The position numbers and the translations under genes were made by a program. Under the pieces are notes generated by a model. That model searched no databases, was not told the origin of the DNA, and was given only the letters and a program-made list of their open reading frames with translations. DNA of 38,145 bases from Rhodocyclaceae bacterium (GTDB lineage: Bacteria; Pseudomonadota; Gammaproteobacteria; Burkholderiales; Rhodocyclaceae). The stretch covers positions 1 through 38,145 of the forward strand of contig JAUSBB010000117.1 in assembly GCA_030652245.1 (NCBI GenBank). The letters are read 5' to 3'. Positions 13,786-36,778 of this stretch are shown piece by piece. Position 1 is the first letter of the stretch; each line of letters starts with the position of its first letter.

Positions 13786-13862
13786 TGGTAGGCGCGATTG
13801 GACTCGAACCAACGACCCCCACCATGTCAAGGTGGTGCTCTAACCAGCTGAGCTACGCGCCT
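13786..13862 (-). tRNA. tRNA-Val (anticodon GAC), CCA encoded
   Basis: AGGCGCG...CCACC-TTGACAT-GGTGG...GTTCGAGTC...CGCGCCTACCA; 7-bp acceptor stem pairs perfectly. Confidence 0.95.
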
Positions 13863-18232: not shown

Positions 18233-19468
18233 TTAGGGCATCAATCGGTCGTCCAGCCACTCTATCCAGTGCTTGACCGGCAGTTCGGTCCCCGCCTGCA
18301 GATGGGCGATGCAGCCGATGTTGGCGCTGGCGATGCCGGCGGGCTGGCCGGCCGTCAGGGCGGCAATCTTGTTTACTTGCAGGCGGCTCGACAGCTCCGG
18401 CTGGAGGATCGAATAGGTGCCCGCCGAGCCGCAACACAGGTGGCTGTCGGCCACCGGCGTCAGGCTGAAGCCGGCCGCGCCCAGCAGGGTTTCGACCACG
18501 CCGCGAATCTTCAAGCCGTGCTGCAGCGTGCATGGCGCATGGAAAGCCAGCGGCACAGCCGGCACGGGCGGCAGGGCGGCCAGCAATTCGCGCAGGCGCG
18601 CTTGTTCCGCCGCCACGACTTCGCTGACATCGCGCGTCAGTTCGGCCACGCGCAGCGCCTTTGCGGCATAGGCCGGGTCGTCCTGCAGCAGATGGCCGTA
18701 ATCCTTGACCTGCACGCCGCAGCCGGAGGCGGTCATGACAATTGCCTCGACACCCGCCTCGATCCGCGGCCACCAGGCGTCGACGTTGCGGCGCGCGTTG
18801 GCGCTCGCCCCTGCCGCATCGTTCAGATGCAAGCGCACCGCGCCGCAGCAGCCGGCGTCCGGCGCGACTTCGAGCGCGATGCCGAGCCGCGCCAGCACCC
18901 GCGTGGCCGCGCCATTGATGTTCGGATACATCGACGGCTGGGCGCAGCCGGCGAGGACCAGCATCTTTCTCGCCTGCTCGCCGGGCAGGCTCACCCCGGC
19001 CGACGACAGCGGCGGCACTTTCGACTTCAAAGCCCCAGGCAGCAAAGGCCGCACCATTTGCCCGAGCTTCATCGCCGTACCGAACAGCACGGGGCGCGGC
19101 AGGGTTTCGCGCAGGGTGGCGCGCAGCACGCCATCCAGGCCGCTGCGCGGCACGCGCTGTTCGACGACCGCGCGGCCGATGTCGAGCAGGCGCGAATAAT
19201 GCACGCCCGACGGACAGGTCGACTCGCAGGAACGGCAGGTCAGGCAGCGGTCCAGATGCAGACGTGTCTTCTCGGTCGGCACCGTGCCTTCCAGCACCTG
19301 CTTGATCAAATAGATGCGTCCGCGCGGCCCGTCGAGCTCGTCGCCAAGCAACTGATAGGTTGGGCAGGTGGCCGTGCAGAATCCGCAATGCACACACTTG
19401 CGCAGGATTTCCTCGGCCTCGCGGCCGGCGGTGGTGTTGCGGATGAAATCGGCGAGATGGGTTTCCAT
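18233..19468 (-). CDS. glcF: Glycolate oxidase iron-sulfur subunit
   Basis: CVHCGFCTATCPTY and CLTCRSCESTCPSGVHY cluster motifs; two CCG-type motifs (AGCCGAVRLH, HLCCGSAGTY). Confidence 0.93.
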   Translation of the reverse strand: METHLADFIRNTTAGREAEEILRKCVHCGFCTATCPTYQLLGDELDGPRGRIYLIKQVLEGTVPTEKTRLHLDRCLTCRSCESTCPSGVHYSRLLDIGRAVVEQRVPRSGLDGVLRATLRETLPRPVLFGTAMKLGQMVRPLLPGALKSKVPPLSSAGVSLPGEQARKMLVLAGCAQPSMYPNINGAATRVLARLGIALEVAPDAGCCGAVRLHLNDAAGASANARRNVDAWWPRIEAGVEAIVMTASGCGVQVKDYGHLLQDDPAYAAKALRVAELTRDVSEVVAAEQARLRELLAALPPVPAVPLAFHAPCTLQHGLKIRGVVETLLGAAGFSLTPVADSHLCCGSAGTYSILQPELSSRLQVNKIAALTAGQPAGIASANIGCIAHLQAGTELPVKHWIEWLDDRLMP

Positions 19469-19469
19469 T

Positions 19470-20537
19470 TCAAAGTTCAGCGTACATCCGGCCGGGGTTG
19501 AAAATGCCGTGGGGGTCGAAGGTCTGTTTGAGGCGGCGCTGCAGGTTCAGCACGGGCAGTGGCAGCGCCGTGAAAGCGCCGACTGCCGCCTTGAGGGCAG
19601 GATCGGCGCGGAACAGTGTCGCGCTGCCGCCCACCTTCGCCGCTGCGGCGCGAATATCTTCCGCTGGCGCACTTGATCGCAACCAGCGCTGTGCCCCGCC
19701 CCATTCGATCAGGGTTGCGCCGGGCAGGTCGATGACCGGGGCGATCGAAGGCACCGACAGACGCCACAGCGGCCGTTCGTCCGCGAAGAACGGCGCACGC
19801 TGGTCGCGCAACTCGGTCCAGAACGCCGTCTCGCCAGCGCCGACTTTTGCACCACCCAATTCCTGCTCCGCCGCGGCGATTGCCGCGCGCGCACCCGCGA
19901 GCCGTAGCGTCAACTCGCCATCGGCCCAGGCGCTGGCGACAATCGGCAGCGGCTGGCCGGCCCAGCGATTGAGTTTATCGAGCGCTGCGGCCTGGGGCAG
20001 CTCGAAGCGCAGGGTGGCTTCGGCAACCGGCCGGGGCAGCACCTTCAGCGAGATTTCTAGCAACAGTCCCAGCGTGCCGAGGCTGCCGGCCATGACCCGC
20101 GAGACATCGTAGCCGGCGACGTTCTTCATCACCTGGCCGCCAAAAGAGAGTTCGCGCGCCGCGCCATCGAGCATCTTCACGCCCAGCACAAAGTCGCGCA
20201 CCGCGCCCGCGCTGACCCGGCGCGGCCCGGAAAGACCGGCCGCCACCACGCCGCCGATGGTTGAGTCAGCGCCGAAGCGCGGCGGCTCGAAGGCCAGGCA
20301 TTGGCCCTGCTCCGCCAGCACCGCCTCGATCGCGGCGAGCGGCGTGCCGCTACGCGCGGTGATGACGAGCTCGGTCGGTTCGTAGGCCAGCACGCCGGCA
20401 TGCGCGCGAGTTTCCAGCAGCGCGCCGCGCGGTGCCTGGCCGTAAAAGTCCTTGCTGCCGCCGCCGCGGATGCACAGCGGCGCGGCACTTCCCGCAGCAA
20501 GAATGCGCGCGCGAAATTCTTCGGTCAGATCGCTCAT
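19470..20537 (-). CDS. glcE: Glycolate oxidase FAD-binding subunit
   Basis: FAD-binding-4 type N-terminus; position between glcD and glcF. Confidence 0.9.
   Translation of the reverse strand: MSDLTEEFRARILAAGSAAPLCIRGGGSKDFYGQAPRGALLETRAHAGVLAYEPTELVITARSGTPLAAIEAVLAEQGQCLAFEPPRFGADSTIGGVVAAGLSGPRRVSAGAVRDFVLGVKMLDGAARELSFGGQVMKNVAGYDVSRVMAGSLGTLGLLLEISLKVLPRPVAEATLRFELPQAAALDKLNRWAGQPLPIVASAWADGELTLRLAGARAAIAAAEQELGGAKVGAGETAFWTELRDQRAPFFADERPLWRLSVPSIAPVIDLPGATLIEWGGAQRWLRSSAPAEDIRAAAAKVGGSATLFRADPALKAAVGAFTALPLPVLNLQRRLKQTFDPHGIFNPGRMYAEL
19824..19847 (+). repeat. Dispersed repeat R1 copy D (core), inside glcE
   Basis: cgccgtctcgccagcgccgacttt; glcE reads KVGAGETA. Confidence 0.9.
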
Positions 20538-21988
20538 CGCGCGCTCCCGGTCAGCCGGTATTCGGAACAGTGGCGCGGCTGCGGCACCGCCTTGCCGGGA
20601 TTGAGCAGGCCGAGCGGATCGAAGGCCGCCTTCACGCCGTGGAACGCCGTCAGTTCGTCGAAGGAAAATTGCAGGCACATCTGCTGCACCTTCTCGATGC
20701 CGACGCCATGTTCGCCGGTGATCGTGCCGCCGACATCGACGGACAAGGCGAGGATGTCCGCGCCCAGCGCGGTGGCGCGGTCGAGCTCGTCGTCACGGCT
20801 GGCATCGAACATGATGAGCGGATGCAGATTGCCGTCGCCGGCGTGGAAGACGTTGGCCACGCGCAGCCGGTGCTGCCGCGCCAGTTCCTCGATGCGCGTC
20901 AGCACATGGGCGATGTGCTTCCTCGGAATCGTGCCGTCCATGCACAGATAATCGGGCGTCAGGCGGCCGACGGCGGGAAACGCCGCCTTGCGCCCGGCCC
21001 AGAATTTCAGCCGCTCGGCATCGCTTTGCGAAACCCGCAGGCCGCGCGCGCCGCTGGCTTCGAGCACCTGGCACATCGCGGCAATTTCCTCGGCCACCTC
21101 CTGTTCCGTGCCGTCGGATTCGGCGAGCAGGATCGCGGCGGCACTGAGGTCATAGCCGGCATGCACAAAGGCCTCGACGGCGGCGGTCGCCGGCTTGTCC
21201 ATCATTTCCAGTCCGGCGGGGATGATGCCGGCGGCGATGATCGCGGCCACCGCATTGCCGGCCTGCGTGACATCGTCGAAGCTGGCCATCACCACCTGCG
21301 CCACCGTCGGCCGGGGCGTGAGCTTCACGGTCGCTTCGAGCACCACGCCGAGCATGCCTTCAGAACCGATCATGAGCGCCAGCAGGTCGTAACCCGGGCT
21401 GTCCAGCGCATGCGCGCCGATCTCGATGATCTCGCCATCGATCAGCGCGACGCGCAGCTTGAGGATGTTATGTACGGTGAGGCCATATTTGAGGCAATGC
21501 ACGCCGCCGGAATTTTCGGCGACGTTGCCGCCGATCGTGCAGGCGATCTGCGAGCTCGGGTCGGGGGCGTAGTAAAGGCCAAACGGCGCCGCCGCCTCGG
21601 AGATGGCGAGATTGCGCACGCCGGGCTGCACGCGCGCCAGACGGGCCAGCGGGTCGATCTCGATGATGCGCATGAAACGGGCCAGCGACAGCACGACGCC
21701 CGCCGCCACCGGCGTCGCGCCACCGGACAGGCCGGTGCCGGCGCCGCGCACCACCACGGGCACACGCATGTCATGACAGACGGAGAGCACGGCGATCACC
21801 TGTGCCTCGCTATCCGGCAGCGCCACGGCCCAGGGCAGGCAGCGATAGGCGGTCAGGCCGTCGCATTCATACGGTTTGATGTCCTCGGGGTCGCTGAGCA
21901 AGCCGCCGGCCGGCAGGAGTGGCGTCAGCCGGGCGAGCAAGGCGGCGCGGTGGGCGGCGTCAGGGGGAGGTAGCAAGGTGGCGGTCAT
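20534..21988 (-). CDS. glcD: Glycolate oxidase FAD-linked subunit
   Basis: VVVRGAGTGLSGGATP; GGNVAENSGGVHCLKYGLT; HAGDGNLHPLIMFD. Confidence 0.95.
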   Translation of the reverse strand: MTATLLPPPDAAHRAALLARLTPLLPAGGLLSDPEDIKPYECDGLTAYRCLPWAVALPDSEAQVIAVLSVCHDMRVPVVVRGAGTGLSGGATPVAAGVVLSLARFMRIIEIDPLARLARVQPGVRNLAISEAAAPFGLYYAPDPSSQIACTIGGNVAENSGGVHCLKYGLTVHNILKLRVALIDGEIIEIGAHALDSPGYDLLALMIGSEGMLGVVLEATVKLTPRPTVAQVVMASFDDVTQAGNAVAAIIAAGIIPAGLEMMDKPATAAVEAFVHAGYDLSAAAILLAESDGTEQEVAEEIAAMCQVLEASGARGLRVSQSDAERLKFWAGRKAAFPAVGRLTPDYLCMDGTIPRKHIAHVLTRIEELARQHRLRVANVFHAGDGNLHPLIMFDASRDDELDRATALGADILALSVDVGGTITGEHGVGIEKVQQMCLQFSFDELTAFHGVKAAFDPLGLLNPGKAVPQPRHCSEYRLTGSAR

Positions 21989-22782
21989 GGGTGTTGGCCG
22001 GCAAAAGTAACACGGAAATCATCGAGCCAGCCGAAGCTATCGAGTGTCGCCCCGCCGGGTTTGTATTCGCAGCCGATCCAGCCGGCGTAACCGAACTGCT
22101 CAAGACGCTCGAACAGGAAGGGAAAGCGGATCTCGCCCGTGCCCGGTTCATGGCGGCCGGGATTGTCGGCAATCTGGATGTGGCCGATCCGCGGCAGATG
22201 CGTTTCCAGCGTGCGGGTCAGGTCGCCCTCCATCACCTGGGCGTGATAGACGTCGTACTGCACCTGCAGATTGCGGCTGCCGACGGCATCGAGCACCTGC
22301 AATGCCTGCGCGGTGGTCGGCACGAGAAAGCCCGGATTGTCGCGGTTGTTTAGCGGTTCAAGCAGCAGGCGGATGCCCACGCGCTGTGTCGCCGCGGCGG
22401 CAAAGCGCAGGTTGTCGACGAGCGTTTCCAGCGCCTGGTCGCGGTCGCCGGCCGCAATGCCGGCCAGGCAGTTCAGCCGCGTGCAGCCCAGCGCCTCGGC
22501 ATAGTCGATGGCCCGCCCGACGCCCTCCTGAAATTCCGCCTTGCGTTCCGGCAGGCAGGCAATGCCGCGCTCCCCGGCCGCCCAGTTGCCCGCCGGCAGG
22601 TTGAACAGCACCACCTCGACGCCCGAAGTCAGCACCACCTCGGCCAGCACCGCCTTGTCGAAGTCGTAGGGAAAATGAAATTCGACGCCCTTGAAGCCAG
22701 CCCGCGCGGCTGCGCCGAAACGGTCGAGGAAGTCGTGTTCGGTGAAGAGGAAGGAGAGGTTGGCGGAGAAGTGCAGTGACAT
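21985..22782 (-). CDS. hyi: Hydroxypyruvate isomerase
   Basis: MSLHFSANLSFLFTEHDFLDRF...; EPLNNRDNPGFLV; QYDVYHAQVMEGDL. Confidence 0.92.
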   Translation of the reverse strand: MSLHFSANLSFLFTEHDFLDRFGAAARAGFKGVEFHFPYDFDKAVLAEVVLTSGVEVVLFNLPAGNWAAGERGIACLPERKAEFQEGVGRAIDYAEALGCTRLNCLAGIAAGDRDQALETLVDNLRFAAAATQRVGIRLLLEPLNNRDNPGFLVPTTAQALQVLDAVGSRNLQVQYDVYHAQVMEGDLTRTLETHLPRIGHIQIADNPGRHEPGTGEIRFPFLFERLEQFGYAGWIGCEYKPGGATLDSFGWLDDFRVTFAGQHP

Positions 22783-24122: not shown

Positions 24123-25175
24123 CTAGAGCTTGATCTCGCTCAGGTCGTGACTCAGCTTTTCCAGCGCAGCTTCAGTGTCGGCGGCATCCATCCGGTAACG
24201 GTCAAGGAAGTCGCCGGCCACGTCGCGCCAATGCGCCGCGCCCCGGCGCACGACTGCCAGCAAATCTGCCGTCCCACCAGCGCCGACTTTTCCCATATCA
24301 AATGCAGCCAGTGCGGGAAACAGCTCCTTGCGCATGCCGTCGAAGTTGGCGAACCAGAAATGCAGCTGCGGCCAGGCGGCCTGCTCGATCAGCGTGGGCA
24401 GGGTGACCAGACAATCGGCAAGATTGTCGCGCACGGCGCGGGCGAGAATTTCCGGGCGACGTTTTTCAAAACCCGCCAGCATCTTTTCCCAGTCGGGGCC
24501 GAGCAGGCCGCCGGCGGCGTGTTCGCCGCGTTCGTGCAGGATCAGGCTGGCGGTTTCGGCGTCGGTCATGCGTTCGAGCGCCGTTTGCGGATCATCCGCA
24601 TAACCGTGGAGGGCAAGCGCCCGCGCCAGTGCGCCCGGCGTTTTCTTCATGCTCCAGCCTTCGGCCTTTTCCCACAACCACTGGCGCAGGGCCTCCCGCC
24701 GCACGATGACGACGCCATTTTGCAGGGCGGCCGGAATGGCGGTCAGATCGCGCGCGTATTCGCGCTCGCAGACCAGCACCGTCAACCCATCCGTTGCCTC
24801 GCGATACGCCAGTTGCCCGAGGAAGAAATGCGGTTTGCCGAAACGCCCGATCCCGGCGCCATAGACGAGGCCATGAGCCGCGAGCCGCTGGTTGATGGCG
24901 ACACTGGCGAATGGGTCAAATTCCTCGTCGCTGACCGGCAGCGGCGCAAAGCGGTCTTCCGCAAGGGTTTCCCAGAGCGCTTCGCGCGCGGTAAGCCAGG
25001 CGCCGACATCGCCGCGCGCCAGCGTCTCACCCAGGGGAATGCCCTGCTCCCAGCGGTAGAACTCGCGCATTTCGAGCAGATAGGTGCACAGCGACATCTC
25101 GCGCGCATGGCGGGCGTCGGCGATGGCGCAGTTGCGTTGGACGATGGCAACCAGTTGCGCCAGGTCAATGTTCAT
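24123..25175 (-). CDS. Conserved protein of unknown function (350 aa)
   Basis: Intact ORF; ATGA overlap with the upstream 151-aa gene. Confidence 0.8.
   Translation of the reverse strand: MNIDLAQLVAIVQRNCAIADARHAREMSLCTYLLEMREFYRWEQGIPLGETLARGDVGAWLTAREALWETLAEDRFAPLPVSDEEFDPFASVAINQRLAAHGLVYGAGIGRFGKPHFFLGQLAYREATDGLTVLVCEREYARDLTAIPAALQNGVVIVRREALRQWLWEKAEGWSMKKTPGALARALALHGYADDPQTALERMTDAETASLILHERGEHAAGGLLGPDWEKMLAGFEKRRPEILARAVRDNLADCLVTLPTLIEQAAWPQLHFWFANFDGMRKELFPALAAFDMGKVGAGGTADLLAVVRRGAAHWRDVAGDFLDRYRMDAADTEAALEKLSHDLSEIKL
24267..24290 (+). repeat. Dispersed repeat R1 copy E (core), inside the 350-aa CDS
   Basis: tgccgtcccaccagcgccgacttt; CDS reads KVGAGGTA. Confidence 0.88.
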
Positions 25176-25627
25176 GATTTCGGCGTATTGGGCAGGCGGC
25201 GCTTGCGCCCCTGCCAGTGGGCGACGCCCTGCACGATGCGCGAAAACGGCAGGGCCTCGAAATTTTCATATTCGGCCTGGGCCAGCCGCACCAGTTTCAG
25301 GACATCGGGCGCGGCGGCTGCGGGGTCGAGCAGATCACGCAAGCCGATCAGCCCGCCGCATTGCACCTTCATGGTCATGGCATGCGGCAGGATGCGCTGG
25401 GCATCCTTGACCTTGAGCGCGAAAGCGGAGTTCTTCCGCAGCAAGCTGAGCAACTGACCGCACGCCGCCCGTGCCAGGGGGGCGCGGCAGGCCACGACCT
25501 CGCGCTCGGCCAGCGACAGCCGCTGCGCCGCCTCGCACACCGCTGCCTGCATCAGCAGCGCCCGATCGAAGACACAAGGCAACTGATTGATCTGATCGCG
25601 GGCGATGCGGTAGCTAGTTTCGTCCAT
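25172..25627 (-). CDS. Conserved protein of unknown function (151 aa)
   Basis: Intact ORF translationally coupled to the 350-aa gene. Confidence 0.75.
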   Translation of the reverse strand: MDETSYRIARDQINQLPCVFDRALLMQAAVCEAAQRLSLAEREVVACRAPLARAACGQLLSLLRKNSAFALKVKDAQRILPHAMTMKVQCGGLIGLRDLLDPAAAAPDVLKLVRLAQAEYENFEALPFSRIVQGVAHWQGRKRRLPNTPKS

Positions 25628-25840: not shown

Positions 25841-26071
25841 TTAACTTTCTTCACCGGTGCGCGGATCGGCTTCGCGGACGGTGCGCAGCGCCTCTTCGGC
25901 CTGCAGTTCATTTTCGCCAAAAATGATCTTGACCTGGCAGTCCGCCAGGTCGACTGTCTTGCGCAGGCGCTTGGCTTCGTCCGAGGCGTCCTTGAACACG
26001 GGAAATTCGGCGAGTTTTTCGAGTTGCTTGATCGGCCCGATTTGGCTGACACGATAGATGTAGTAAGGCAT
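25841..26071 (-). CDS. Small conserved protein of unknown function (76 aa)
   Basis: MPYYIYRVSQIGPIKQLEKLAEFPVFKDASDEAKRLRK... Confidence 0.7.
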   Translation of the reverse strand: MPYYIYRVSQIGPIKQLEKLAEFPVFKDASDEAKRLRKTVDLADCQVKIIFGENELQAEEALRTVREADPRTGEES

Positions 26072-26081
26072 GTGGCTCCTG

Positions 26082-26471
26082 TTAGACGTAAAACTTGGCG
26101 GCCTTGCGGCGGCCCGGTTTGGATTTCTGGATGATCACGCCCTTGATGACCGACAGGTCGGGAATGTTCGCCGTTGCGTAATTGGGGTTCAGGGGCTGCA
26201 ATTTCCAGTCCCCCGCGCTGCCGACCAGTTGGCGGAAAATCCACTCGTCGTCCAGCCTGGCCATGACGTAGGAACCGTCGGTCGCCAGGCCTTCCGGCTC
26301 GATGACGATGATGTCGCCGTCGACGAATTCAGGCTCCATGCTGTCGCCGAGCACCATGAGCGCGAAGGATTCGCCGGCGCTACAGCCTTCCAGCGCGGCG
26401 TCGGTGGCGGGAGCTGAAGCGGGGAGGCCGGCGGGCACGACCGGGATGGGGAAGGGTTTTTTTTCGTTCAT
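26082..26471 (-). CDS. S24/LexA-fold protein without a DNA-binding domain (129 aa)
   Basis: MVLGDSMEPEFVDGDIIVIEP ... YVMARLDDEWIFRQL; LexA-type S-M-x-P-x-x-x-x-G-D core. Confidence 0.8.
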   Translation of the reverse strand: MNEKKPFPIPVVPAGLPASAPATDAALEGCSAGESFALMVLGDSMEPEFVDGDIIVIEPEGLATDGSYVMARLDDEWIFRQLVGSAGDWKLQPLNPNYATANIPDLSVIKGVIIQKSKPGRRKAAKFYV

Positions 26472-26472
26472 T

Positions 26473-26721
26473 TCAGTCACCAAGCCAACGAACCAGATAA
26501 TAGAGGCGGAAGCCTTCCGAAGAACGCGAGGGACCCACGACCTCGGCGGCATGCAGATTATGCACCGGCAGCGCGCGTGCCAGCGCGACCTCGGCCGATG
26601 CCACCACCTCGACGCAATTTTCGGCGAAGCGCTGGCGTTTGCCGCGCGTCGCCTGCACCAGCGCGAAGTGCTGCTGCACCAGATGCGGCGCCTCCGCATC
26701 AAGATAAACGCCACCTTTCAT
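26473..26721 (-). CDS. Small protein of unknown function (82 aa)
   Basis: MKGGVYLDAEAPHLVQQHFALVQATRGKRQRFAENCVEVVASAEVAL...; 4-nt overlap with the upstream gene. Confidence 0.65.
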   Translation of the reverse strand: MKGGVYLDAEAPHLVQQHFALVQATRGKRQRFAENCVEVVASAEVALARALPVHNLHAAEVVGPSRSSEGFRLYYLVRWLGD

Positions 26722-27746
26722 GCCACACCTCGCAAGATTTTAATGTTCTCGATGATCGGGGCAAACAGCGGTTCCAGATGGCGGCGCATCAGCGGTCCGA
26801 CCGCCGTGGTGCGCGTAAGGATCGGCGCGGCGACGTCGGCGTTCAATTGCGCCAGCGCCGCCAGCGCGGCCAGTAAGTCGGCCGCCGCCGGAATCCCGTC
26901 CGGGTCCGCAACATCACGTCCAGCGCGGAAATACTCGCCCAGCAAATTGAGCAGCAGATAGGCGGTTTCGTGGGTGAGCGGTTTTTCGAGCACCAGTTCG
27001 GCCGCCTGGAGATAGGCCTGCCCGGCCCCGCTGAAACAACGGGCCAGCAGTCGCAACGCGGGCGTGTCCTGCACCAGTTCAGTCGGCCAATCGCGCGGCG
27101 GCTCGTCCGGCAAGCTATCCGGCATATGTTCAAGAAAGCCGACCAGATAGTGCGGGCGGCGGCGGGCCTTGCGCCACAACTGCTCGCGCGCCGCCGGTTC
27201 GATCAACCCCGCCGCCAGCACCGCGCGCACGGTGTTCATGGCGGCGACCGGGTCTTCCTCGAAGGGCAGATGTTCGACCAGGTAAGCGACGAGCTCCCGG
27301 CCCATCGCGCCGGCGCGCACCGCCGGAGCGGCCAGCATGACGCGGGCAACTTCCATGGTCGGCAGCGCCCACCAGGCGCGGCGCGCCAGTTCGTCGGTGA
27401 GGGCAGGCGCATAGGCCACCGACAGCACCGCTTCCGGCTCGCCGAGCTTCAAGAGAACCTCAAGACTTTTTGGACTGGCATGGCCCATGCGCGTCCAGCG
27501 CCGCAGATGCACCGGGTAACCGCCGGGCGAACCCAGCGCATGGCCGCCCAGCAGTTCGCGCACGCGCATGAAGTAGCGCTCGGCGCGTCCGACCGGATTC
27601 AGCAGAATGCGCGCCTCGCCGCGCCCGGTCAGCCCGTGGAGCACGCGCGCCCCTTCGTCGATCCGCACCGCCAGCAGATCGCCCGCCAGCAGCACATTGA
27701 GGCGCAGGGCGTCTTCGGGCGTCAGTTCCGGGCTGCTAGAATTCAT
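26718..27746 (-). CDS. dsrS: Probable sulfur-oxidation-associated protein DsrS
   Basis: ELTPEDALRLNVLLAGDLLAVRIDE...HALGSPGGYPVHLRRWTRMGHASPKSLEVLLKLGEPEAVLSVAYAPALTDELARRAWWALPT resembles DsrS as recalled; not searched. Confidence 0.6.
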   Translation of the reverse strand: MNSSSPELTPEDALRLNVLLAGDLLAVRIDEGARVLHGLTGRGEARILLNPVGRAERYFMRVRELLGGHALGSPGGYPVHLRRWTRMGHASPKSLEVLLKLGEPEAVLSVAYAPALTDELARRAWWALPTMEVARVMLAAPAVRAGAMGRELVAYLVEHLPFEEDPVAAMNTVRAVLAAGLIEPAAREQLWRKARRRPHYLVGFLEHMPDSLPDEPPRDWPTELVQDTPALRLLARCFSGAGQAYLQAAELVLEKPLTHETAYLLLNLLGEYFRAGRDVADPDGIPAAADLLAALAALAQLNADVAAPILTRTTAVGPLMRRHLEPLFAPIIENIKILRGVA

Positions 27747-27819: not shown

Positions 27820-28287
27820 ATGAAAACAGTTCATCGCACCGCCTGGCTCGCCATTGCCATTGCCGCTGCCGTCTTCCTTCTCGCCGGTTGCGCCAGCAGC
27901 CAGTCCGGTTCCAGCTACGCGCGCGAACAGACGCGCGGCGAAATGCATGTTCGCCTCGGCGTCGTCGAGAGCGTGCGCCAGGTCACCATCGAGGGCAGCA
28001 AGTCGCCGACCGGCGTGCTGGCCGGCGGCGTCATCGGCGGCATTGCCGGCAGCAACATCGGCGGCGGTCGCGGCGCGACGGTGGGCACGGTGATCGGCGC
28101 GGTTGCCGGCGGCCTCGCCGGCCAGGCCATCGAGGAAAGCGTGACCAGGAAGAATGGTCTGGAAATCACCATCAGGCTCGATGACGGCCAGATGATCGCC
28201 GTCACCCAGGAAGCCGACGAGCAGTTCTATCCCGGCGACCGCGTCCGCGTGCTCTCCGGTCGCGGCGCGACGCGCGTTACCCGCTGA
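27820..28287 (+). CDS. Glycine-zipper outer membrane lipoprotein (SlyB/Pcp-like)
   Basis: Lipobox LLAGCASS; GGVIGGIAGSNIGGGRGATVGTVIGAVAGGLAG. Confidence 0.88.
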   Translation: MKTVHRTAWLAIAIAAAVFLLAGCASSQSGSSYAREQTRGEMHVRLGVVESVRQVTIEGSKSPTGVLAGGVIGGIAGSNIGGGRGATVGTVIGAVAGGLAGQAIEESVTRKNGLEITIRLDDGQMIAVTQEADEQFYPGDRVRVLSGRGATRVTR

Positions 28288-28303
28288 TTGCCGGACGGCC
28301 GGA

Positions 28304-28879
28304 TTGGAAGCCTTTCTCATCTCCACGGGGATCGTCGCGCTCGCCGAAGTGGGCGACAAGACGCAACTGCTGGCTTTCATCCTGGCCGCCAAGTTTCGCA
28401 AGCCGCTGCCAATTGTCCTCGGCATTTTTGTCGCGACGGTGGCGAACCACGCCCTGGCCGGCGCGCTGGGAACCTGGCTCACCACGCTCGCCGGCCCGGA
28501 AACCCTGCGCTGGGTGCTGGGTGTCTCTTTCATCGGCATGGCTATCTGGACGCTGATTCCCGACAAGTTCGACGAGAAGGACGCCAAGTTGACGCACTTT
28601 GGCGTCTTCGGCACGACGCTGATCGCCTTCTTCCTGGCCGAGATGGGCGACAAGACCCAGGTCGCGACGGTTGCCCTGGCTGCCCAGTATCAGGCCTTCT
28701 TCGCCGTGGTCGCGGGAACCACCGTGGGCATGATGATCGCCAATGTTCCGGCGGTGCTGCTGGGCGACCGGATCGCCCACCGGATGCCGGTGCGCCTGGT
28801 GCATGCCATCGCCGCCGCGATTTTTGCAATCCTTGGCATCGCCACCCTGCTGGGCGCGGGCGAGAGCCTCGGTTTTTGA
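28304..28879 (+). CDS. TMEM165/GDT1 (UPF0016) family cation (Mn2+) exporter
   Basis: Two E-x-G-D-K-T-Q motifs: EVGDKTQLLAF and EMGDKTQVATV. Confidence 0.92.
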   Translation: MEAFLISTGIVALAEVGDKTQLLAFILAAKFRKPLPIVLGIFVATVANHALAGALGTWLTTLAGPETLRWVLGVSFIGMAIWTLIPDKFDEKDAKLTHFGVFGTTLIAFFLAEMGDKTQVATVALAAQYQAFFAVVAGTTVGMMIANVPAVLLGDRIAHRMPVRLVHAIAAAIFAILGIATLLGAGESLGF

Positions 28880-28885
28880 TCAAAC

Positions 28886-29824
28886 ATGCACCAACATAAC
28901 CTCTCCGCCTGGTCGCACAACCACGTCTTTGACGCAGGCAACCCCGCCGCAGAGCGCGGCACGCGCGCCGTCATGTGGATCACCCTGGTGATGATGGTGA
29001 TTGAAATCACCGCCGGCTGGTGGTTCAACTCGATGGCGCTGCTGGCCGATGGCTGGCACATGAGCTCGCATGCCGTGGCCATCGGCGTCAGCGCCTTCGC
29101 CTACGCGGCGGCCCGCCGCCATGCCAGCGACCCGCGCTTTGCCTTCGGCACCTGGAAGATCGAAGTGCTGGGCGGCTTTGCCAGCGCGATTTTTCTGCTG
29201 GGCGTGGCGGCGGTGATGGTGTTTGCCTCGGTCGAGCGGATTCTTGCGCCGCAGCCGATCCAGTATCAGGAGGCGCTGGCCATCGCCGTGGTGGGCCTTG
29301 TCGTCAATGTCGTCTGCGCGGTGATTCTCGGCAGGTCGCACGATCATCACCCTGACGATCACCACGGACACGGCCACGCGCACGGCCACGACCTCAACCT
29401 GAAGGCCGCCTATTTCCATGTCATCGCCGATGCCCTGACCTCCGTGCTGGCGATTGTCGCGCTGGCCGGCGGCTGGCTGTATGGCTGGGCCTGGCTCGAC
29501 CCGGCGATGGGCATTGTCGGCGCCGTGCTGGTGGCCAGCTGGGCGAGGAATCTGCTCACCGAGACCGGCCGCGTGCTGCTCGACCGCGAGATGGATCATC
29601 CGGTGGTGCAGGAGATTCGCGAGGCGGTTGAAACCGGCCCGGAGGCCGGCGATACGCGGATCGCGGATCTGCATGTCTGGCGCGTCGGCAAGCGCACCTA
29701 CTCGTGTGCGCTCACCTTGGTCACCCACGACCCGGCATTAACGCCAAAGCAGGTGCATGAACAACTGGCCCAGCATGAAGAGATCGTGCACGCCACGATC
29801 GAGATCCATCTGTGCCCGGGTTGA
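28886..29824 (+). CDS. dmeF: Cation diffusion facilitator, DmeF-like (Co/Ni)
   Basis: SMALLADGWHMSSHAVAIG; His-rich loop HDHHPDDHHGHGHAHGHD. Confidence 0.85.
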   Translation: MHQHNLSAWSHNHVFDAGNPAAERGTRAVMWITLVMMVIEITAGWWFNSMALLADGWHMSSHAVAIGVSAFAYAAARRHASDPRFAFGTWKIEVLGGFASAIFLLGVAAVMVFASVERILAPQPIQYQEALAIAVVGLVVNVVCAVILGRSHDHHPDDHHGHGHAHGHDLNLKAAYFHVIADALTSVLAIVALAGGWLYGWAWLDPAMGIVGAVLVASWARNLLTETGRVLLDREMDHPVVQEIREAVETGPEAGDTRIADLHVWRVGKRTYSCALTLVTHDPALTPKQVHEQLAQHEEIVHATIEIHLCPG

Positions 29825-29825
29825 T

Positions 29826-31124
29826 TCAGTTCAACTGGATGCGCCGACCCCAGGGCACCGGCGCCTTGCCTTTCACCAACCACAGCACGGGATAACTGGG
29901 CGGCTCCTTGGGAAATTCGCCTTCCGCGTCGGTGAAATAGACCAGCGAGTCCGGCTGCTGGCCGCTGCGTTCGATCCACTCAAACACCGGCGTAAAGGAC
30001 GTCCCACCGCCCCCGGCAAATTGGCGGGGCAGGCGCAATTCGTCCCAGGGTTCGAACACCCAGGGGGCGTCCGCCGCCAAGGCGGTGTCGCAGGCAAACA
30101 GCGTGATGCGCACCGGCATGGTGCCCTTGAGCGCGTTCATCTCGCCCAGAAAGCTGGCCAGGTCAGCCGCGCTCACCGAGCCCGAAACGTCGATGGCGAC
30201 ATGAATGTCGCCGGAGTGGCTGCGCAGGCTGGGCCAGATCACCTCGCCTTCACGGCGCGAGGGCCGCAGCCAGGTGTAGTCATCGCGCCCCACCTGCGTC
30301 AGGTATTGCGCCAGCAGCGCCCGCCACGACACCTGCGCCGCCAGCGCACTTTCGGTCAAACGCGCGAGCTGCCCGGATAGCTTGCCGGCCTCGCGGGCGC
30401 GTTGCGCAGCGGCGGCCAGATGGCGTTGCCATTGCTGCTGCAACTGTTCCTTTTCTTTCGCGGTGAGCGGCGGCGGCGGCGGGCCATCTTCATCACCCGC
30501 CGTACTGCCAGCGCCGACTTTCTCCGGCGAACTACCGCCCGCATCGGGGTCGATCTCCTCGGACGGCGCCGTCCCGCCGTCTTCCTTATTGTCGCTGCCC
30601 CCCTTGCCCTGCGCTTCCGACTGCTGTTCGCCCTGCCCGCCACCCTCGCCGCCCTCGTCGCTGTCCCAGACATGGTCATCGAGCATTTCGCTGTCGAGAT
30701 CGTCGTCGATGCAGGGATAGATTTCCTCGGCAGCCATGCCGCGATAGAGGTCAAGCGCCTGCGCGCCGGGCGGCGGTTTGAGGCCCTCGTCAAGCAGCAG
30801 CGGATTGATCGCAAAATCGCAGGCCAGATCCCACTTGCGCTGCACGCGATGGCCGCGCCGCGCGAAGTGGCCGAGCGCGCAATGCAGCGCCTCGTGGGCC
30901 AGCGCGAACTGCACCTCGGCGGAAGTCAGGTTCTCGATCCAGTTCGGGTTGTAGTAAAGCGCGCGGGCGTCGGTCGCCGTAGTGCGGCACCAGGCGCCAG
31001 CGGGCTTCAGGGGCAGGCGCAGCACCAGCGCGCCGAGGAAGGGCTTGTCGAGAATCAGCCGGGTTCTGGCCGCGGCCAGCTTTCCTTCGGCAGCCAGGGA
31101 AAGGGGGGCGCCGCCCTCACTCAT
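29826..31124 (-). CDS. VWA-like protein with HExxH metallopeptidase-like N-terminal domain (DUF2201 type)
   Basis: LAHEALHCALGHFARRGHR; MIDAS-like DVSGSVS; acidic low-complexity linker. Confidence 0.85.
   Translation of the reverse strand: MSEGGAPLSLAAEGKLAAARTRLILDKPFLGALVLRLPLKPAGAWCRTTATDARALYYNPNWIENLTSAEVQFALAHEALHCALGHFARRGHRVQRKWDLACDFAINPLLLDEGLKPPPGAQALDLYRGMAAEEIYPCIDDDLDSEMLDDHVWDSDEGGEGGGQGEQQSEAQGKGGSDNKEDGGTAPSEEIDPDAGGSSPEKVGAGSTAGDEDGPPPPPLTAKEKEQLQQQWQRHLAAAAQRAREAGKLSGQLARLTESALAAQVSWRALLAQYLTQVGRDDYTWLRPSRREGEVIWPSLRSHSGDIHVAIDVSGSVSAADLASFLGEMNALKGTMPVRITLFACDTALAADAPWVFEPWDELRLPRQFAGGGGTSFTPVFEWIERSGQQPDSLVYFTDAEGEFPKEPPSYPVLWLVKGKAPVPWGRRIQLN
30498..30521 (+). repeat. 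Dispersed repeat R1 copy F (core), inside the VWA CDS linker
   Basis: cgccgtactgccagcgccgacttt; CDS reads KVGAGSTA. Confidence 0.85.
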
Positions 31125-32169
31125 ACAGCATCAGGTCGGCCACGGCATTCGCCCAGCCGGAAAATTGCGGCACGGCAAACAAGGCCTGGCCGATGCCGCG
31201 ATGCATGTCGGACACCAGCATCACGCCCATTTCGCGTTGGGGAAATTTCTGCGCGTAGTCGAGGATGTTGCCCCAAACGGCCTTGGCGTCCGGCGCGTCC
31301 TTGACCCGCAACGCACGGCCCGCCAGCGCGGCGGCGACGGCGTATTGCAGGTCGATCTCGGTCGGCGCGGCCACGTCCTGACCAGCGCAAATGGCCGCCA
31401 GGTCGGGCAGTCGGTCGAGGCTGTCGATGAAGGCGGCGCACTCGATTCCCGCCGCATGGCCGACGCAGGCCGCCAGCGCACCGGCCAGCAGTTCGGGATG
31501 GTCGCCAAACTTTTGCAAGGCGCGGTGGGCAAATTCCCACGAACGCGGGCTGGGGAAAGCCAGCTCGCCGCCGGCGTTCTTCGCCGGGTCGAAGTCGAAA
31601 AGCAGTTCGGGCTTGAAGCGCAAAAAGGCAATCAGCCCCTCGTCAATGCCGTTGGCGTAGGCCCAGGCCGCCCAGTCATCGAGATGGGCATCCACCGCGT
31701 AGTGGGAAAATCGGTTGGCCAGCGGCGCCGGCATTGCATAGGTGACGCCGCGGTCGCCCTGGCGATTGCCGGCGGCGAAAATCGCCCAGCCATCGGGCAC
31801 CCGGTAATCGCCGAGTCGCCGGTCGAGAATCAGTTGGTAGGCGGCGGCCGACACGGCGGGCGGGGCCGAGGTGATCTCGTCGAGGAAGAGCACGCCCGCC
31901 GGCCCGTGGCGCACGGCATCGGGCAGCATAGTCGGCGTCGCCCATTCGACATGGTCGCCGACGCGAAAGGGAATGCCGCGCAGATCGGAAGGTTCCATCT
32001 GCGACAGGCGGATATCGACTACCGGCACCTGGTGACGCGCAGCCACCTGGGCGACGATCTGCGACTTGCCGACCCCCGGCGGCCCCCACAGCATCACGGG
32101 GGTATGGTGGCCGGCGGCCGTGCTCTGAAATTCACGGTCGAGAATGAAGGAGAGTTGGGCGGGACGCAT
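31117..32169 (-). CDS. MoxR-family AAA+ ATPase
   Basis: Walker A WGPPGVGKSQ; Walker B GVLFLDEI. Confidence 0.9.
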   Translation of the reverse strand: MRPAQLSFILDREFQSTAAGHHTPVMLWGPPGVGKSQIVAQVAARHQVPVVDIRLSQMEPSDLRGIPFRVGDHVEWATPTMLPDAVRHGPAGVLFLDEITSAPPAVSAAAYQLILDRRLGDYRVPDGWAIFAAGNRQGDRGVTYAMPAPLANRFSHYAVDAHLDDWAAWAYANGIDEGLIAFLRFKPELLFDFDPAKNAGGELAFPSPRSWEFAHRALQKFGDHPELLAGALAACVGHAAGIECAAFIDSLDRLPDLAAICAGQDVAAPTEIDLQYAVAAALAGRALRVKDAPDAKAVWGNILDYAQKFPQREMGVMLVSDMHRGIGQALFAVPQFSGWANAVADLMLYE

Positions 32170-32184
32170 AAATAGGATTCGGGA

Positions 32185-33666
32185 TCAGAATGACTCGTAG
32201 TGCAGTTGTGCGGCAGGCAGACCGGCGGCCGTCAGCGCCGTGCAGGCCGCGGAGACAAAGTCGGCGGGGCCGGCGACATAGACCTCGCGACAGGCGAAAC
32301 CCGCTTCGGCCCGCAGGCGCTGTACGGCTGCGACGCCGGCCGCTGGCAGGTCGTTCGCCCGCAGCGTGACGAAACTGAAGGTGTCGAGCGCGTCAGCCCA
32401 GGCGCGGCACTGGTTTTCCAGATAATGGCCGTTGTCGCGCGTCGCCGCCCAGATCAGTTGCAGGGCCACCGGCACGTCCGCGGCGACGGCGCTCTCGATC
32501 AGGCTCTTCGCCGGCGCGAAACCGGAGTCGCAGACGACAAACGCAATGTCGTTGGTCACGTCCTTTTGCAGCACGAAATCGCCAAACGGGCCGAACAGGC
32601 TGACCGGCTCGTCGACCTTGAGCGCATCGGCAAACAGGCGGCGCGCAAATTCGTCATCCGGGTTATTGCAAATGTGGAACAGCAGGTTGCGGTCGTCGCA
32701 GGGACAGGAGGCAATCGGGTAATCGCCGCGGAAGTTGGCGGTGGAACCCGACACGCTCAAGGAGACGCGCTGACCGGCCAGAAAACGCAAGCGGCTGCTG
32801 CGCGGCGTTTGCAGGTGCAACAGAATGATATCGGGCGCCAGCGGGGTGATTTTCTTGACCTTGGCAACAATCTCCTGCTCGGGAATGTCGGCCGGCAGCT
32901 TCGCTTCGAGCATCTCGATTTCGAGATCGGTGATCGCCGTGTGCGAGCAAAGCAGCGCATGCCCCTGAGCGCGCTCGCTGGCCGACAACGGATAGTCGGT
33001 GTGGTTCACCTGCTGCACCCGTCCCGCAACGATGCGCGCCTTGCACAGGCCGCAATTACCGTTGCGGCAGCCGTAGGACGGCGCCAGCCCGGCGCGCAGC
33101 GCCGCTTCGAGGACTGTCTCGTTGCCTTCGACGAAAAATTCATGGCCCGAAGGCTTGACCTTCACATGCGCGGTCATGACGCGGAGCACATCATCAAGCA
33201 CCTCCAGGGTATCCGCGGGTTCCTCGCTGCCCAGCACGCCGGCCAGCCCCGCGTCGAGAAACTCGGCCAATGCGGCGAGTTGTTCAGAGGGTGAGGCAGC
33301 GCGCAGCATCTCGATGCGCTCCTGCAGTGCCTCGATAAGGTCGTGATAATGGGCTAGATGGCGCCGCACTTCGGCCAGCTCCTCGCTCTGCGCCGCCAGT
33401 CGCTGCGCCAGCACTTCCTGGTTGGGCAGCACGCGCTCGCGGATGCGCCGGCCGAAGGCTTCCTCGCGAATCTTGACGGTCCGCTCGAAAGCGCCGGAAT
33501 CCTCCAACTGCAGATCGGGGAAGACCTTCAGCAAATCCGTGGTCGTCACCATGCCGTCCTGCGAAGGCAAGGCGCCGCTGGCGATATGTTTTTGCATCTC
33601 GGCGCGCGTCACACCCGTCAAATGCGCCGCGCGGGAAACCGTCAGCAAATGCGACATGGAACCCAT
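32185..33666 (-). CDS. HTH-like + 2Fe-2S ferredoxin + FAD/NAD(P)H reductase fusion protein
   Basis: N-terminal SRAAHLTGVTRAEMQKHIASGALP helical region; YGCRNGNCGLCK...LLCS 2Fe-2S ligands; GDYPIAS and VSLFGPFGDF reductase motifs. Confidence 0.85.
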   Translation of the reverse strand: MGSMSHLLTVSRAAHLTGVTRAEMQKHIASGALPSQDGMVTTTDLLKVFPDLQLEDSGAFERTVKIREEAFGRRIRERVLPNQEVLAQRLAAQSEELAEVRRHLAHYHDLIEALQERIEMLRAASPSEQLAALAEFLDAGLAGVLGSEEPADTLEVLDDVLRVMTAHVKVKPSGHEFFVEGNETVLEAALRAGLAPSYGCRNGNCGLCKARIVAGRVQQVNHTDYPLSASERAQGHALLCSHTAITDLEIEMLEAKLPADIPEQEIVAKVKKITPLAPDIILLHLQTPRSSRLRFLAGQRVSLSVSGSTANFRGDYPIASCPCDDRNLLFHICNNPDDEFARRLFADALKVDEPVSLFGPFGDFVLQKDVTNDIAFVVCDSGFAPAKSLIESAVAADVPVALQLIWAATRDNGHYLENQCRAWADALDTFSFVTLRANDLPAAGVAAVQRLRAEAGFACREVYVAGPADFVSAACTALTAAGLPAAQLHYESF

Positions 33667-33807: not shown

Positions 33808-34740
33808 ATGATCCAACTCGTCGAATGGCTCGTCCTCGTCACCACGCTGCCCACGCGCAATGCCGCGGCACGCATGCGCCTGTGGCGCGCCATCAAGGCG
33901 CTCGGCTGTGCCGCCTTGCGCGATGGCGTCTATCTGCTGCCGGCACGCGATGAAACCGGCGCGGCACTGCGCGCCCTGGCGGACGAGGTGCGCGCGAGCG
34001 AAGGCAGCGCCGAGGTGTTGTATGTAGCGGCCGATGGGGCACAGGACGAAGCCTTCCGCCAGCTATTCGATCGCAGTGCCGACTATGGCGCACTGATTGC
34101 AGATACGCGGTCGGCCAGCGCGGATGAAAAAACCCTGCGGCGGTTGACGCGTGAACTGGCGGCGCTGGAGGCCGCCGATTACTTCCCGGATACGGCACAC
34201 CATCAGGCGCAACAAGCCCTGGCCGCTTTGGCCAAGCGTCTGTCACCCAACGAGCCGCAAGCCGTCCCCAGCCCCATCCGCCGTCTCGCCAGCGCCGACT
34301 TTTCTGGCCGCACCTGGGCGACCCGCAAGAACATCTGGGTGGATCGCATGGCGTCCGCCTGGCTGATCCGCCGCTTCATCGATCCCCAGGCAAATTTTCT
34401 CTGGCTCGACACGCCGGCCGACTGTCCGCCGGATGCGCTCGGCTTTGACTTCGACAGCGCCACATTCACCCATGTCGCTCCAACCAGCCATGCGCCCGAA
34501 CTCGTGAGCTTCGAGGTGCTGGCGGCAAGTTTCGGCCTGGATGCCAATCCGGCCATCGCGAAGATCGGCGCCATCGTCCATTACCTCGATGTCGGCGGCG
34601 CGCCGCTGGCCGAAGCATCCGGCATCGAAGCCGTGCTGGCCGGCCTGCGCGTCGGCGCAATTGACGATGACGCGCGACTCACCGCCGCCGGCCGCGTCCT
34701 CGACGGCCTGTACACGAACTACCAGCAGCCGGAAGGCTGA
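33808..34740 (+). CDS. chrB: Chromate resistance protein ChrB
   Basis: WLVLVTTLPTRNAAARMRLWRAIKALGCAALRDGVYLLP; KNIWVDRMASAWLIRRFIDPQANFLWL. Confidence 0.92.
   Translation: MIQLVEWLVLVTTLPTRNAAARMRLWRAIKALGCAALRDGVYLLPARDETGAALRALADEVRASEGSAEVLYVAADGAQDEAFRQLFDRSADYGALIADTRSASADEKTLRRLTRELAALEAADYFPDTAHHQAQQALAALAKRLSPNEPQAVPSPIRRLASADFSGRTWATRKNIWVDRMASAWLIRRFIDPQANFLWLDTPADCPPDALGFDFDSATFTHVAPTSHAPELVSFEVLAASFGLDANPAIAKIGAIVHYLDVGGAPLAEASGIEAVLAGLRVGAIDDDARLTAAGRVLDGLYTNYQQPEG
34279..34302 (+). repeat. Dispersed repeat R1 copy G (core), inside chrB
   Basis: cgccgtctcgccagcgccgacttt, identical to copy D; preceded by GCCGTCCCC (34261-34269). Confidence 0.9.
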
Positions 34741-34776
34741 GGGCTATTTTCTCTCCGCGATACAAGGAAATACATC

Positions 34777-35367
34777 ATGTCGACAACCCCCATTCACAGC
34801 CGGAATCCGCAACCCTATCAGGTGACCCAGGAAGATGTGGCGCTACTGATCAATGCCGGCATGAGTGCGGAGGACCTCCAGCACAGCCAGGCCGTCGCCA
34901 AAAAGGCGCTCGAAATCGCCGGGCGCGTGAAGGCAAAGCTCGACATGGAACTGATCGGGCGTGGCGCCCTCTTCCACGACCTCGGCAAGACGCAGACCCA
35001 TGCCATCGAACACGGCAAGATCGGCGCCGAAATGGGACAGGCGCTCGGGCTGTCAAAGGCGATCACCGACATCATGGAAAAGCACATTCGTGGCGGCCTG
35101 ACCGCGGCCGAGGCGGCGGAACTCGGCCTGCCGGTCAAGGATTACACCCTCCACAAGCTCGAAGAAAGAATCGTCATCTACGCCGACCGTCTGGTGGACA
35201 TCATCCACGATGGCATCGTCAAAATTGACAACGAAGCCGAGGCCGAGCAGCGCTTCGAGGACATCCTGAACACCGAAATCAAATACGGCAAAAACGACAT
35301 CACCCGGGCGCGTTACTTCGGCTATCACCGCGAAATCCAGGGACTGATGGGTAACGCAGCGCAATAA
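34777..35367 (+). CDS. HD domain phosphohydrolase
   Basis: HSQAVAKKALEIAGRV...GALFHDLGKTQTHAIEHGKIGAEMG...EKHIRGG. Confidence 0.9.
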   Translation: MSTTPIHSRNPQPYQVTQEDVALLINAGMSAEDLQHSQAVAKKALEIAGRVKAKLDMELIGRGALFHDLGKTQTHAIEHGKIGAEMGQALGLSKAITDIMEKHIRGGLTAAEAAELGLPVKDYTLHKLEERIVIYADRLVDIIHDGIVKIDNEAEAEQRFEDILNTEIKYGKNDITRARYFGYHREIQGLMGNAAQ

Positions 35368-35413
35368 CCAGAACAACAACGACAATCACCCCCCCAGCAC
35401 AAGGAAATCTGCC

Positions 35414-36778
35414 ATGACCGACATCACCAACGCCGTCCCCATCAACGCGGCGGGCGCGGCTAGCGCCGTCCCGCCAACGCCGACTTTGGGCGAAGCCTTC
35501 AAATACTGGCTCAAGCTCGGCTTCATCGCCTTCGGCGGCCCGGTCGGGCAGATTTCGATGATGCACAACGAGCTGGTCGAGCGGCGGCGCTGGCTTTCCG
35601 AGCATCGCTTCCTGCATGCCCTCAACTACTGCATGCTGCTGCCCGGGCCGGAAGCGATCCAGCTCGCCATCTACATAAGCTGGCTGATGCACGGCGTGAA
35701 GGGCGCGGTGATGACCGGCATCCTGTTCTTCATGCCGGCCTTCGTATTGGTCACCGTGCTGGCGGGCGTCTATCTGAGCTACGGCGACGTACCGGCCATG
35801 CAGGGGATCTTCTACGGCATCAAGCCCGCCGTGGTCGCCGTGGTGCTGTTCGCGGCCTGGCGCATCGGCAGCAAGGTGCTGAAGAACGAGGTGCTGATGA
35901 CGATTGCCGCGCTGGCCTTCATCGGCATCTTTTTCTTCAAGATCGGCTTCCCGTGGATCGTGCTCGCCGCCGGCATCCTGGGCGCCATCGGCGGCAAGCT
36001 GGTACCGGCCAAGTTCAAGGCGGGCGGCGGGCATGGCGCCGCCGGCAAGGCGGCGCACGGCCCGGCCATCCTCGACGACGACACGCCGCCCCCGGCGCAT
36101 GCGAAATTCTCCTGGGGCAAGTCCATCATGATGGTCACGATCTTCGTTGCGATCTGGGCGGCTTCCATGCTGGCGCTGCAGGGCATGCCCGTGCTCTTCG
36201 ACATGGGCGAGTTCTTCACCAAGGCCGCCTTCCTCACCATCGGCGGCGCCTATGCCGTGCTGCCCTACGTCTATCAGGGCGCGGTCGAGCATTTCGGCTG
36301 GCTCTCCGGCCCGCAGATGATGGACGGCCTGGCGCTCGGCGAAACGACGCCGGGACCGCTGATCAAGGTCGTCACCTGGATCGGTTATCTCGGCGCCGTC
36401 AACCCGGCAAATCCGATCGCCACCGGCATGGCGGGCGCGGCGGTGGCGACCTTCTTCACCTTCCTGCCGTCCTTCCTGTTCATCCTCGCCGGCGGCCCGA
36501 TCGTCGAGGCGACGCGCGGCGAACTCAAATTCACCGCACCGCTCACCGCGATTACCGCGGCGGTAGTCGGCGTGATCCTCAACCTGGCCACCTTCTTCGC
36601 CTGGCACACCTTCTGGCCCGGGGCCGTAGACACCTCGCCCTTCGCCGGGCCCTTCGACATCATTGCGGTAATCATCGCCATCGCGTCGTTTGTCGCCCTG
36701 TGGAAATACAAAGTGGATGTCATGAAAACCATCGGCGTCTGCGCCCTGCTCGGCCTCGCGCTTTCCTTTGTCAGGTAA
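35414..36778 (+). CDS. chrA: Chromate transporter ChrA
   Basis: LKLGFIAFGGPVGQISMMHNELVERRRWLSEHRFLHALNYCMLLPGPEAIQLAIY. Confidence 0.95.
   Translation: MTDITNAVPINAAGAASAVPPTPTLGEAFKYWLKLGFIAFGGPVGQISMMHNELVERRRWLSEHRFLHALNYCMLLPGPEAIQLAIYISWLMHGVKGAVMTGILFFMPAFVLVTVLAGVYLSYGDVPAMQGIFYGIKPAVVAVVLFAAWRIGSKVLKNEVLMTIAALAFIGIFFFKIGFPWIVLAAGILGAIGGKLVPAKFKAGGGHGAAGKAAHGPAILDDDTPPPAHAKFSWGKSIMMVTIFVAIWAASMLALQGMPVLFDMGEFFTKAAFLTIGGAYAVLPYVYQGAVEHFGWLSGPQMMDGLALGETTPGPLIKVVTWIGYLGAVNPANPIATGMAGAAVATFFTFLPSFLFILAGGPIVEATRGELKFTAPLTAITAAVVGVILNLATFFAWHTFWPGAVDTSPFAGPFDIIAVIIAIASFVALWKYKVDVMKTIGVCALLGLALSFVR
35431..35487 (+). repeat. Dispersed repeat R1 copy H (long form, core 35464-35487), inside the chrA N-terminus
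   Basis: cgccgtccccatcaacgcggcgggcgcggctagcgccgtcccgccaacgccgacttt. Confidence 0.9.

Follow-up and report, generated by a model that had tools for sequence, protein, structure and literature searches.

A 2Fe-2S reductase fusion, a MoxR-type ATPase and a DUF2201 protein head a satellite operon of the reverse Dsr sulfur oxidation pathway

Three adjoining minus-strand genes of a Rhodocyclaceae bacterium (GenBank assembly GCA_030652245.1, contig JAUSBB010000117.1, positions 29826-33666; the 38,145 nucleotides analysed are hereafter the window) encode a fusion of a helical N-terminal domain to a 2Fe-2S/FNR-like reductase, a MoxR-type AAA+ ATPase and a DUF2201 protein with a VWA domain. We assign them with high confidence to the reverse dissimilatory sulfite reductase (Dsr, DsrAB) pathway of sulfur oxidation, of which they head a satellite operon, because genes of this operon co-occur strictly with dsrA and because moxR, vwa, dsrS and the reductase lie in the main dsr operon of relatives. 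Reverse Dsr is a main route of environmental sulfur oxidation, and the standard dsr gene list ends at dsrR/S. An earlier description made from the nucleotides of the window (the sequence-only reading) had proposed a redox-linked maturation or regulatory system around the MoxR-VWA pair; this fits the present findings, but it missed the parent system.

The open reading frames confirm the reported arrangement. The fusion gene (32185-33666, 493 amino acids) and moxR (31117-32169, 350 amino acids; Walker A GPPGVGKS, Walker B LFLDEI) are separated by 15 nucleotides, and moxR overlaps vwa (29826-31124, 432 amino acids) by 8 nucleotides. More than 65 contigs from beta- and gammaproteobacteria carry full-length orthologues of the fusion, whose Fer2 and FNR folds are modelled confidently by AlphaFold, so the fusion is real and not an accident of assembly. 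Since the organisms that carry it are largely sulfur oxidisers (Sulfurisoma, Sulfuritalea, Thiobacillus, Hydrogenophilus, Thiohalophilus and Parabeggiatoa), co-occurrence with dsrA was examined in 180 genomes of the order, 36 with and 144 without dsrA, and in a census of 229 genomes of the class. Within the order, a profile search found the N-terminal domain in 29 of the 36 dsrA-containing genomes and in none of the 144 others. The same absence from the 144 holds for the DsrS homologue (30/36) and for two further proteins of the satellite operon, c15 (32/36) and DUF6866 (26/36), which are both uncharacterised and would be useful Dsr markers. Fisher values for these order-wide associations range from 1e-23 to 1e-31 and ignore phylogeny; families f1, f11 and f48 each hold members with both dsrA and the fusion and members with neither (f, L, G and C denote families, loci, genomes and contigs). 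Across the class, dsrA was present in 39 of the 42 genomes with the N-terminal domain; of the remaining three genomes, one carries a fragment of dsrB at the end of a contig and the other two are 72% and 81% complete.

Gene order provides the second line of evidence. In two species of one gammaproteobacterial genus (L175 and L176) the main operon reads dsrA-B-E-F-H-C-M-K-L-J-O-P-N-R-moxR-vwa-dsrS-reductase on one strand, and everything except the N-terminal domain therefore lies inside it. L174 and L177 contain dsrR-dsrS-reductase on one strand, the fusion and dsrA of L112 are divergently oriented, and in L114 the fusion lies near the dsr cluster. A one-strand operon fusion-moxR-vwa-dsrS-82aa-(S24)-c18-c15(-DUF6866) occurs in G090 (L118), L038, L042 and Sulfurisoma sediminicola BSN1 (L046). 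All nine genes follow unbroken in L038 and in S. sediminicola; L042 has a 1.5-kb gap between moxR and vwa and ends before DUF6866. By coordinates, vwa and dsrS are adjacent in 15 genomes of 7 families, and the trio moxR-vwa-dsrS was confirmed in eight further genomes that were read (L160-L167). The association of the three genes, on which the sequence-only reading had made its proposal depend, is found in relatives. One locus (L033:6001-9273) lacks moxR and the greater part of both vwa and dsrS; here the fusion runs into a C-terminal fragment of vwa with a dsrS fragment next to it, which may be a real deletion or an assembly fault. The dsrA of G038 was found in two pieces on C13 (L113:17012-18381) and again on C59, as interrupted or frameshifted copies.

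The satellite operon of the window has the order fusion-moxR-vwa-dsrS-82aa-S24-c18-c15-DUF6866, all on the minus strand, and does not end at 29826 as previously supposed: the gene set resumes at 27746. It is split by three plus-strand genes at 27820-29824 (a glycine-zipper protein, GDT1 and the Co/Ni efflux protein DmeF), an insertion shared with close relatives of this species and outside the system. The dsrS homologue (26718-27746) is 39% identical over 355 amino acids (E 1e-84) to a 372-amino-acid gene of G317 (L143). There, a DsrR that matches PDB 2k4z (1.4e-25) follows dsrN and precedes this gene, which is named dsrS because of the known gene order dsrNRS. Downstream lie a conserved 82-amino-acid protein (26473-26721), an S24/LexA-type peptidase-like protein (26082-26471), c18 (25841-26071), a conserved 76-amino-acid protein that in G176 and G047 lies next to c15 where the main dsr cluster ends, c15 itself (25172-25627), which is Cys-rich with five cysteines in the window copy, and the Sfum_1244 family/DUF6866 protein (24123-25175). 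The product of 26082-26471 has 129 amino acids, with an S24/LexA-type peptidase domain and no obvious DNA-binding domain. The dsrA of the same genome is on another contig (C65), away from the three genes. This is where the window departs from the Allochromatium vinosum dsr operon (dsrABEFHCMKLJOPNRS), for here dsrAB is separated from moxR, vwa, the N-terminal domain and the reductase. The two resemble each other in the DsrS homologue and, through the relatives, in the reductase that follows dsrS in L174-L177 and in moxR-vwa between dsrR and dsrS in L175 and L176.

Several observations weigh against this assignment or narrow it. L174 and L177 have no MoxR or VWA gene between dsrR and dsrS, and seven dsrA-containing genomes of the order are without the N-terminal domain. 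Many Thiobacillus-type genomes carry the fusion beside recJ with no Dsr gene nearby, so that the link to Dsr in these genomes is one of co-occurrence. The VWA protein is enriched with dsrA in the order (31 of 36 genomes versus 14 of 144), and the 14 genomes that have a DUF2201 relative without dsrA mean that the MoxR-VWA family is not exclusive to Dsr. The name DsrS was given by synteny after the 2k4z-matching DsrR and not by direct comparison with A. vinosum DsrS. Finally, the client of the MoxR-VWA pair proposed below is a guess from gene context.

The fusion protein contains a winged-helix fold (residues ~4-50), a long helix or coiled coil (~83-144), a plant-type 2Fe-2S domain (~165-250) and a divergent FNR-like part (~262-493). 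Of the architecture put forward by the sequence-only reading, the 2Fe-2S domain and the FNR-like fold are supported by Pfam, AlphaFold and Foldseek, with the qualification that the FNR part is divergent and has not kept RxYS and GGxGxxP. Pfam finds Fer2 (6e-14) and, below the cut-off, a weak NAD_binding_1 (0.007); the FNR fold, hardly recognised by Pfam, is recognised in the predicted structure (AlphaFold pLDDT ~90, Foldseek 1e-13 to 1e-26). The ligands of the plant-type [2Fe-2S] cluster (CxxxxCxxC...C; C200, C205, C208 and C240) are invariant. Among aligned orthologues the fused copies have lost the Arg of the FAD motif RxYS in 64 of 65 cases and the Ser in all 65, and several stand-alone copies retain R-x-K-S. 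The NAD loop GGxGxxP is altered in fused and stand-alone reductases (CDSGFAP and variants), where paralogues keep GGTG or SGTG, and the CGP motif is changed in both forms. Directly after the former RxYS site all fused and separate forms examined have A-[SN]-C-P-C, once as G-S-C-P-C (L188); in the window protein the CPC motif is at 321-323. A further cysteine of the C-terminal domain, C420, is present in nearly all of these reductases. Paralogues lack both the CPC motif and C420, although a single one has a Cys at the position of C420. These cysteines may have a dithiol or metal role, and ordinary NAD(P)H turnover by the reductase seems doubtful.

The reductase occurs as a separate gene of 312-364 amino acids in many genomes. 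Fused and split reductases form one clade with 100/100 support, apart from the common AscD-like paralogue, and the split reductase of G317 nests within the fusion clade. Since some dsr-containing genomes have the reductase and not the N-terminal domain, the former seems to be the core part and the latter rather a modulator.

The N-terminal domain (coding part 33175-33666, minus strand) is encoded by a stand-alone gene of 145-200 amino acids in about 20 dsr-containing gammaproteobacterial genomes of the sample, and in G317 and G325 it adjoins the reductase as a separate gene. It had been described as MerR/excisionase-like. The AlphaFold model indeed has a small winged helix followed by a long helix, but the fold matches to MerR, BldC and Xis are not significant. 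Foldseek ranked CbpM (best), NmlR, Xis and BldC first (E 0.04-0.3; all matches 0.04-0.9), and a PDB profile search gave only chance matches to coiled coils. HTH_17 of Pfam reached only 0.05 on the fusion N-terminus, below the cut-off, and the stand-alone form matches the DNA-binding family NF038291 at 1e-5. The predicted fold thus resembles MerR/BldC/Xis/CbpM winged helices only suggestively; the domain could possibly bind DNA, and docking to a protein, as in CbpM, is equally possible. Proteins with an Xre/MbcA/ParS-type toxin-binding domain are repeatedly encoded next to the fusion or the gene of the N-terminal domain (L148:9374-9784, L149:8769-9164, L097:4865-5227), with no toxin gene recognised there.

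The other two products have the features of a MoxR-VWA chaperone pair, an AAA+ ATPase with Walker A and B motifs beside a VWA protein with a metal-ion-dependent adhesion site (MIDAS). Pfam assigns AAA_5 (7e-12) to the former and DUF2201_N (6e-45) and the DUF2201 VWA domain (5e-23) to the latter. Nearly all MoxR copies retain the Walker motifs, and all complete copies of the VWA protein that were read have the MIDAS motif DxSGS. The window copy has an HExxH-type domain and a C-terminal VWA domain, with HEALH and DVSGS both present as reported earlier. HExxH is not conserved among orthologues (HDALH in L175 and L176, NQALH in L163); a protease role based on this motif was therefore rejected, and the conserved function is unlikely to be that of a peptidase. 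NorQD is reported to act in metal insertion and RavA-ViaA on fumarate reductase (PMC9976466, PMC13036017, PMC10585395), and by comparison the pair is most naturally read as maturing or activating a Dsr enzyme. NorQ-NorD, RavA-ViaA and CbbQ-CbbO likewise combine a MoxR-type ATPase with a VWA/MIDAS partner encoded next to a respiratory or metabolic client. In the present pair, by contrast, the VWA partner belongs to the DUF2201 family and contains an HExxH-like segment, the likely client is Dsr and DsrS is a third partner.

On this basis we tentatively suggest that the genes encode a redox-coupled module for maturation or control in the reverse Dsr pathway. The MoxR ring and the VWA protein, the latter as an adaptor with its MIDAS site, would join DsrS in remodelling or maturing a Dsr client, for which DsrAB with its siroheme and Fe-S clusters or DsrMKJOP are candidates, after the model of NorQD on NO reductase and RavA-ViaA on fumarate reductase. 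The 2Fe-2S/CPC reductase would act as a dedicated redox partner in this step, either by giving or taking electrons or by thiol exchange, and the MerR-like coiled-coil N-terminus may dock it to a partner or to DNA. The explanation as a whole, pathway and mechanism taken together, appears fairly probable to us.

The N-terminal domain also suggests a redox-sensing transcription regulator of the dsr genes, in which this domain would dimerise through the coiled coil and bind DNA and the 2Fe-2S/flavin-fold half would read the redox or sulfide state, comparable to SoxR with a reductase attached. The MerR/BldC/Xis-type fold matches, the trace of HTH_17, the NF038291 match of the stand-alone form and the long, dimerisation-type helix of the model agree with this, and a regulatory role is reported for DsrR, whose gene also belongs to the dsr operon (PMC11406059). 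All fold matches, however, have E values above 0.04 and the best, CbpM, is a J-domain adaptor; the net charge of the helix-turn-helix domain is near zero in many orthologues, and many dsr-containing genomes have the reductase but lack this domain, so that the core function would be independent of it. We consider such a regulator rather unlikely. A respiratory electron carrier, which would take electrons from DsrAB or DsrL or hand them to another acceptor, in place of DsrL or alongside it, while MoxR-VWA-DsrS act elsewhere, would explain the place in the dsr operon, the redox domains and the four invariant 2Fe-2S cysteines. Reverse Dsr releases electrons, and for these the known NAD(P) partner is DsrL (PMC7596348). 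DsrL, an NAD(P)H:acceptor oxidoreductase, is also an iron-sulfur redox protein linked to rDsrAB, but it consists of two-[4Fe-4S] ferredoxin domains and a GltD-like body, whereas the protein described here has one plant-type 2Fe-2S domain and an FNR fold. The altered GGxGxxP loop and CGP motif and the loss of RxYS in fused forms speak against ordinary NAD(P)H turnover, and the reductase is not found in all dsr-containing genomes, which leaves an electron carrier unlikely. It is improbable, on present reasoning, that the reductase represents a novel type of redox enzyme that handles sulfur. In such an enzyme dithiol or persulfide chemistry at CPC and C420, fed by the 2Fe-2S cluster, would replace that of flavin and NAD; the substrate would be DsrC or a sulfur carrier, and MoxR-VWA-DsrS would load or activate the enzyme.

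The top sequence and fold matches of the reductase part are the oxygenase reductases BenC, GcoB and carbazole dioxygenase reductase, and BenC, T4moF and GcoB share its fold and its order of Fer2 and FNR-like domains. They are unlike it in the motifs, since the protein has not kept RxYS and GGxGxxP, has an altered CGP and has gained the invariant CPC, and in the added N-terminal domain and the dsr linkage. An ordinary oxygenase-type NAD(P)H reductase, by chance fused to a helical domain and close to MoxR genes, is very improbable, as it is contradicted by the strict co-occurrence with dsrA, the position in dsr operons, the separate clade, the lost FAD and NAD motifs and the invariant CPC. The sequence-only reading had placed the genes next to chromate resistance genes; a chromate or metal-stress response module with ChrB and ChrA is hardly credible. 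ChrB, an HD-domain protein and ChrA are encoded divergently on the plus strand (33808-36778), and 13 of 15 loci from Rhodocyclaceae (L032-L046) have chrA/chrB close to the fusion. However, their distance to the fusion varies, and dsr-linked loci of other families have no chr genes near the fusion except L099. This contig, labelled Desulfobulbaceae, has a chrB 95% identical to that of the window and is probably a mis-binned Rhodocyclaceae contig. The chr genes are a neighbour effect confined to Rhodocyclaceae relatives and lie outside the system.

The dsr gene lists of three papers name R, S and T but not moxR, vwa, the reductase or the N-terminal domain (PMC11406059, PMC7596348, PMC10504309). 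A literature search, with many subscription papers outside its reach, gave nothing on DUF6866, Sfum_1244 or MoxR with dsrAB and sulfur oxidation, and we regard these genes provisionally as new parts of a known pathway. The candidate Dsr parts added are the 2Fe-2S/CPC reductase, its N-terminal partner, MoxR-DUF2201, c15, c18 and DUF6866, all amenable to gene deletion in culturable species. DsrS gains a concrete set of partners, and it may be that Dsr, like NO reductase, depends on an AAA+/VWA machine.

Other candidates were dropped. The search for a defence system gave no PADLOC match beyond a weak AAA hit, no relative was found among viral contigs, and the neighbour gene c1 of Thiobacillus, considered as a partner, reads by eye from its sequence as RecJ. 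Elsewhere in the window, the minus strand carries ordinary genes for glycolate oxidase (glcDEF) and a hydroxypyruvate isomerase-like protein at 18233-22782 and a tRNA gene (Rfam) at 13789-13862.

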